Part shown: in pieces, positions 256 through 902 of the stretch | How the letters are laid out: every line of letters begins with the position of its first letter | Position numbering within the stretch: position 1 is the first letter of the stretch | Origin: Gammaproteobacteria bacterium | GTDB taxonomy: Bacteria; Pseudomonadota; Gammaproteobacteria; Natronospirales; REEB76 | NCBI GenBank assembly: GCA_036383255.1 | Contig: DASVOS010000003.1 | Location: forward strand, 1-64,000 | Length of the DNA stretch: 64,000 bases | Direction of reading: 5' to 3' | Position numbers and translations under genes: made by a program | Notes under the pieces: generated by a model | Told to the model about the DNA's origin: nothing | Seen by the model: only the letters and a program-made list of their open reading frames with translations | Databases searched by the model: none

Positions 256-513
256 TCAGTTCTCAGGCGTGCCCACGTCCACGTCATTCAGCGTGGACGA
301 GTAGTCCGTCTCGAGGACCGCCCGTGCGGCCTTCTCGTCGCCGCGGGTGACGCGCAGCTTCACGCCGCCGAGGGCGATGGAGTAGAGCCAGTCCATCTGC
401 ACCATGTGGTCATCGAAGAGCTGCGCCTCGATGCCCTCCGCCGAGAGGCGGCCGAGCGCGATGTAGGCGTCGGTGGGCTTGTCGTAGGTGGCGACGGTGA
501 CGAGTTCGTCCAT
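256..513 (-). CDS. DUF2007-family putative signal-transducing protein
   Basis: An 85-residue cytoplasmic protein opening MDELVTVATYDKPTDAYIAL, followed by a segment rich in small residues around LSAEGIEAQLFDDH. This is the ferredoxin-like fold and pattern of DUF2007, which resembles small PII-like regulators; no ligand is established for the family. The reading frame stays open upstream to 747, but that extension is low in family similarity and passes through the small-RNA terminator at 678-705, so I chose the ATG at 513. No strong ribosome binding site is visible. It is transcribed toward repeat copy A, so its mRNA would carry the complement of that repeat if transcription runs through. Confidence 0.75.
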   Translation of the reverse strand: MDELVTVATYDKPTDAYIALGRLSAEGIEAQLFDDHMVQMDWLYSIALGGVKLRVTRGDEKAARAVLETDYSSTLNDVDVGTPEN

Positions 514-668: not shown

Positions 669-705
669 AAAAAAAAACCCCGGCGGCAAGGGGATACCGC
701 CGGGG
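669..705 (-). terminator. Rho-independent terminator of the small RNA
   Basis: Perfect nine-pair stem (arms 678-686 and 697-705, CCCCGGCGG with CCGCCGGGG) with a 10-base loop. On the minus strand it is followed by nine U residues (plus-strand A at 669-677). No annotated minus-strand gene lies directly upstream, so it needs its own transcript. That is part of the case for the small RNA. Confidence 0.85.
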
Positions 706-835
706 AGAGCCTTCTTGGCTGGAGGTGATTGGTGCTACTCGCACCAACGATGGGCGTTCATCCTTGGTCCTAACCCGCGCCCCGGTCCTCGTTCATCCTT
801 GACCCACCAATCCATGGCGGTTCGGGCAAGGGCTA
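669..835 (-). ncRNA. Candidate CsrB/RsmZ-like small RNA (CsrA sponge)
   Basis: No gene explains this interval, but the minus strand reads as a small RNA. It carries GGA motifs at 811-813, 796-798, 786-788, 768-770 and 761-763, with two more at 839-844 just upstream. One GGA sits in the loop of a six-pair hairpin at 804-820 (CCGCCA, loop UGGAU, UGGUGG). The segment AAGGATGAACG occurs twice. A perfect seven-pair hairpin lies at 729-747, followed by a strong terminator at 678-705 with a run of U. Upstream is a GacA-like box (885-902). The 5' end is an estimate. Multiple GGA loops, a GacA box and a terminator are the known signature of RsmX/Y/Z and CsrB RNAs. Sequence similarity to any named member is not claimed. 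Confidence 0.6.
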
Positions 836-884
836 CTTTCCTCCTCTGGGCCCCGTCGGGATGCCAGCCAAAGCCGACACGGCG

Positions 885-902
885 TGTAGGACGATTCCTA
901 CA
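885..902. promoter_or_regulatory. GacA-like upstream activating palindrome TGTAGG-N6-CCTACA
   Basis: A perfect 6-6-6 inverted repeat, TGTAGG ACGATT CCTACA. The GacA/UvrY-family binding site of gammaproteobacteria is TGTAAG-N6-CTTACA, so each half differs by one symmetric base. It is centred about 58 bases upstream of the estimated start of the small RNA, a distance compatible with activation. A separate hairpin at 913-931 (CCCCTTG, CAAGGGG) lies just beyond it. Confidence 0.6.

Follow-up and report, generated by a model that had tools for sequence, protein, structure and literature searches.

CsrA-antagonist RNAs have been described as protein sponges. RsmX, RsmY and RsmZ of Pseudomonas, and CsrB and CsrC of E. 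coli and its relatives, have in common several A(N)GGA motifs, one of them in a hairpin loop, an intrinsic terminator and an upstream palindrome of the GacA/UvrY type, in genomes that carry csrA and GacA. Other reports bring in RNA pairing or the csrA mRNA itself. For example, McaS of E. coli binds CsrA and also base-pairs with mRNAs, csgD among them (PMC10729762), and the srbA RNA of P. aeruginosa is predicted to pair at the ribosome-binding region of rsmA, the csrA homologue, with lower rsmA expression reported (PMC12203948). In Marinomonas, a BarA/UvrY-like cascade raises CsrB/CsrC and lowers the csrA1 transcript, an effect ascribed there to a box of GacA type close to csrA1 (PMC8523701). 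An antisense RNA of csrA mRNA has been predicted in Pseudoalteromonas, where a few mRNA targets, imperfect ones, were also predicted for the Csr sRNAs (PMC11882849), and csrA of E. coli is subject to autorepression (PMC7652899). Within the literature covered, which mostly excludes subscription papers, no Csr/Rsm sponge RNA has been shown to pair with csrA mRNA, and a prior description cannot be excluded.

The window analyzed here is a 64,000-nt stretch of a gammaproteobacterial genome. On its minus strand we predict an unannotated small RNA of ~160 nt (669–828) with homologues in relatives. Its 3′ end is set by an intrinsic terminator (669–705), and its 5′ end is inferred from a weak −10-like element, possibly GAAAGT (835–840), itself inferred from the alignment of relatives. 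An earlier note had taken this region for a CsrB/RsmZ-like RNA gene, citing a minus-strand terminator, a duplicated AAGGATGAACG and an upstream palindrome, TGTAGG-N6-CCTACA. All three are there: the terminator has a stem at 678–705 and a U-tract at 669–677, AAGGATGAACG occurs in two copies, and the palindrome lies at 885–902, its center ~65 bp upstream of the inferred 5′ end. To reach the note's count of seven GGA motifs, two that lie in the promoter region must be counted; the predicted transcript has five, and an eighth lies in the box. Its perfect hairpin, CCGCCA-UGGAU-UGGUGG (804–820), does carry a GGA in the loop, in the canonical form of a CsrA site, but one of the six pairs is G.U, so that it is nearly perfect. 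Following this 5′ hairpin are four more A(N)GGA sites (761–798; first G at 798, 788, 770 and 763), two of them within the AAGGATGAACG repeats, then a segment antisense to the leader of csrA mRNA, CCAAUCACCUC (722–732), and, just 3′ of that, a small hairpin, GCC-AAGAA-GGC (709–719), that is conserved in the alignment of relatives. The elements of this putative gene are confirmed as features of the DNA.

The gene neighborhood is only partly as first labeled. The small gene that follows 3′ of the RNA terminator (256–513, minus strand) had been called DUF2007, and a Pfam search at 1e-3 gave it no family at all. Pfam assigns the pip product to alpha/beta-hydrolase families and that of the next gene, dtd, to D-Tyr-tRNA deacylase. 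In L017, L018 and L081 pip has the RNA gene immediately upstream, and from a reading of the flanks it apparently adjoins dtd in L009/L010. In a distant MAG (L086:2650–3000, minus strand), a weak RNA match upstream of pip has the box TGTAGG-N6-CTTACA and carries CAAUCACG.

Measured against the features shared by the Rsm and Csr RNAs, this locus qualifies on each count for which evidence could be sought in the genome. All five GGA motifs of the transcript are preceded by A or AN, one of them in the conserved hairpin, and A(N)GGA is enriched over dinucleotide shuffles (7 with overlapping forms counted, against 1.6 expected, p = 0.0015); GGA alone is not (5 against 4.4 expected, p = 0.48), and the fold z-score of the RNA is only −1.8. 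The palindrome is upstream, in the absence of any GacA binding data. It departs symmetrically from the TGTAAG-N6-CTTACA type of the consensus, as had been claimed, and it is the single occurrence of the class TGTANG-N6-CNTACA in the 2.6-Mb genome. One csrA gene was found with the Pfam model, between what we read as a tRNA gene and an aspartokinase gene, and a regulator of the UvrY/SirA/GacA family exceeds the curated NF007018 cut-off; hfq is also present. The Rfam models of CsrB, CsrC, RsmY and RsmZ had no match in the window at gathering thresholds or at E values up to 10, nor did the homologues match any Rfam family at gathering, which sets them apart from the known RNAs, as does the csrA-antisense 3′ segment. 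Matches to anti-hemB, Esr41 and sX13 were below thresholds, came mainly through the terminator and were set aside. With the conserved GGA hairpin and sites, the box, and csrA and a GacA-family regulator in the same genome, the proposal of a CsrB/Rsm-type, GacA-controlled CsrA antagonist is well supported from sequence, its expression, CsrA binding and sequestration being inferred.

Homologues built of the same parts occur within the genome's own family and order; the signal weakens but persists across the Gammaproteobacteria. A DNA search of 56 relatives placed the RNA in the majority of same-family genomes, and also in two genomes from another family in the order. Alignments of these relatives retain the box, the 5′ GGA hairpin, additional GGA sites, the second small hairpin and the terminator, with both-sided pair changes in the 5′ hairpin and the terminator. 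Loss of the GGA loops in close relatives had been named as a refutation; the loops are kept, and the pairing of the hairpin is held partly by compensatory changes. The family likewise keeps the GacA-like box and additional GGA sites, and both are seen again in distant gammaproteobacteria. When the RNA was searched for with a covariance model (R1), other families of the Gammaproteobacteria yielded homologues, of which many have several GGA sites and a TGTARG-N6-CCTAC box, and a second model to which other-family homologues had been added (R2) recovered still more; in the homologue boxes, TGTAAG or TGTAGG is paired with CCTACA. Weak matches to R1 or R2 that appear unrelated (e.g. in G034, G097, G141 and G177) were left out of the pairing tests. 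Several side observations can be recorded here. One locus (L226, G043:C3:254380–255260) has three tandem copies of the RNA, with a clear TGTAGG-N6-CCTACA box at one only, and all three contain the segment CCAAGGUUCUCCAGCC of family f29, which pairs with the csrA leader of that genome. Two homologues (L127 and L211, in G154 and G361) are longer, at ~210 nt, and contain UCAAUCACCAA; L127 has 13 GGA motifs. L011, L014, L015 and L016 match through the terminator only and were rejected as homologues; these family members hold a second, different conserved small-RNA candidate (~1310–1760), in which a terminator follows hairpins with CUCC-rich loops.

Variation along the RNA is lowest in CACUCAAUCACCUCCAGCC, just 5′ of the terminator, and a 13-mer of this 3′ segment has one copy in each of nine genomes of the order, at the RNA sites. 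We obtained csrA leaders with the Pfam model and then compared them with this segment. The leaders of relatives hold its complement, AGGUGAUUGAGUG, or a near variant, a few bases before the Shine-Dalgarno sequence. The window genome differs on both sides, with CCAAUCACCUC in the RNA and GAGGUGAUUGG in the leader (G000:C11:185975–185985, outside the window), and the 11 pairs are retained as a perfect complement. Only two occurrences of this 11-mer exist in the genome, one in the RNA and one, antisense, in the csrA leader. The first reading of the locus was in this respect incomplete, since the most conserved segment is, from its sequence, an antisense match to csrA mRNA and not a CsrA site. The leader site is probably transcribed, an inference from a promoter-like motif, TTGA-N17/18-AGAAT, upstream of it in most same-family genomes.

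About a dozen families keep 8–15 bp between the RNA and the csrA leader, with compensatory changes. The duplex has 15 pairs in f109 and f3, 13 in f130, 11 in f140, 10 in f149, 12 including G.U in f29, and 10 and 11 in two different sequences of f158. Compensatory changes are seen in f158 (CUUCACCUCG/CGAGGUGAAG and UCUUCAUCACC/GGUGAUGAAGA) and in f29 (AGGUUCUCCAGC/GCUGGAGGAUCU), and the duplexes of f130 and f109 are further examples. The antisense site of most families spans about −40 to −18 relative to the csrA start; that of f29 is at −18 to −7. Conserved complementarity with compensatory changes, as would mark an sRNA that targets csrA, is therefore present, and is absent or weak in some families: no csrA-leader match was found in f48, f141, f180, f75 and f129, and only a weak one in f70 and f38. 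At L121 (G155), L220 (G362), L136/L215 (G202, G062) and L231 (G089), the CACCUC..AGCC segment is kept and the csrA leaders lack a complement. Since several families keep it without a csrA match, the segment may serve a different target or function in them.

The pairing was also assessed statistically. Across 20 families, including the unmatched ones, the RNAs with their own leaders scored 447.5, whereas shuffled assignments averaged 359 and reached at most 428 (none of 100,000 as high as the matched pairs), and in an earlier swap test of 12 families none of 200,000 shuffles reached the matched pairs. Once the core common to the families was left out, the flanks by themselves gave p = 0.013–0.019, a modest covariation. 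The modules were typed in from printed loci, and the choice of family representatives was made by hand; as the families are related and not independent, the shuffles do not give a strict probability. The pattern GTGATTG precedes csrA-like starts in 32 of 369 genomes, 23 of which were judged from the matched sequence to be csrA; second csrA copies in some genomes were not resolved by the start-motif search, except one in G286. Outside the order, RNA and leader pattern co-occurred in this set of 23 in 8 cases with R1 (1.2 expected) and 16 with R2 (2.7 expected), and among genomes outside R2 training in 8 against 1.2 expected (p = 1e-6). Both models contain the seed, so that the co-occurrence is supportive and not independent evidence. 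The search for targets other than csrA was confined to the exact 11-mer genome-wide and to the leaders of the window's own ORFs. Against these leaders, a 28-nt module gave chance matches of 30.5 and 27, both through its 5′ part, compared with 28 for csrA, and the 19-nt core gave no match above 22.

We propose, with a probability of roughly 0.78 and without expression or binding data, an RNA of two halves that would titrate CsrA and pair with csrA mRNA, most likely repressing it. GacA/UvrY would activate its transcription, which is inferred, and the GGA hairpins and loops of the 5′ half would bind and titrate CsrA, as suggested by the GGA sites and the mode of the known class. The antisense segment of the 3′ half would then pair, by inference also in the cell, with the csrA leader beside the ribosome-binding site. 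Such pairing most likely lowers CsrA synthesis; titration by itself is expected to raise that synthesis, through relief of autorepression, and repression of csrA would prevent this. McaS would share this combination of CsrA binding, predicted here, and mRNA pairing; in the text consulted its targets do not include csrA, and no sequence relation was seen. The predicted target region of srbA is similar, but the text consulted neither describes srbA as an RNA that sequesters CsrA nor takes up the conservation of its pairing. In the Marinomonas cascade the outcome, sponge up and csrA down, is the one proposed here, and the text consulted does not consider RNA pairing.

The sign of the effect is inferred, and repression is only somewhat favored over activation or RNA decay. 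The most serious competing explanation, which we consider unlikely, is that pairing activates csrA, or that csrA mRNA triggers decay of the RNA, resulting in homeostasis and not a double block. The Shine-Dalgarno sequence of the window genome is indeed predicted to be partly paired, and to open when the antisense site is blocked (0.22 to 0.41 unpaired). Over 16 leaders, however, there is no average opening (0.44 to 0.43 unpaired when the site is blocked), and unmasking of the Shine-Dalgarno sequence is thus unsupported on average. For the same reason, repression by hindered ribosome loading is favored, perhaps at an upstream standby site, an idea that rests on complementarity between the leader GGUGAU and the 16S rRNA tail.

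Less probable still is a GacA-controlled sponge and nothing more, in which AUCACCUC is kept for structure, stability, Hfq binding or other mRNAs, the match to csrA being a matter of inheritance or coincidence. In its favor, segments of a similar kind stand in f48, f141 and f180, where the csrA leader offers no match; nothing comparable links E. coli CsrB or CsrC to csrA; and the known Csr/Rsm RNAs work by titration (PMC7652899). The genome-unique 11-mer pair and the compensatory changes in several families argue against it.

The leader might instead be a ribosome standby site or an extended Shine-Dalgarno sequence, with the RNA mimicking the 16S tail and pairing with many strong ribosome-binding sites rather than csrA specifically. 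AUCACCUCC is identical to the 16S rRNA tail, GGUGA is kept in most leader sites, and the leader GGUGAU may be conserved for this reason. However, matched changes (AGUG/CACU, AAGC/GCUU and AAGUUC/GAACUU) carry the pairing beyond the 16S-like core, and the 11-mer has no other site in the window genome; we consider this explanation quite unlikely. That there is no gene at all, only a chance terminator in GGA-rich sequence, could draw on the unremarkable GGA count and fold score but can hardly stand against the cross-family conservation, the compensatory pairs and the conserved promoter box.

The preferred reading, a titrating 5′ half and a csrA-pairing 3′ half, likely extends to a widespread gammaproteobacterial group of RNAs that act on both layers, the protein and its mRNA, with the 3′ segment possibly also guiding the CsrA that is bound to the RNA to the csrA Shine-Dalgarno sequence. 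If true, the Gac/Csr circuit would gain a second coherent arm that blocks the autorepression rebound and sharpens the switch. The covarying seed, taken together with the csrA leader, would also be a searchable signature for the poorly conserved RNAs of this class.
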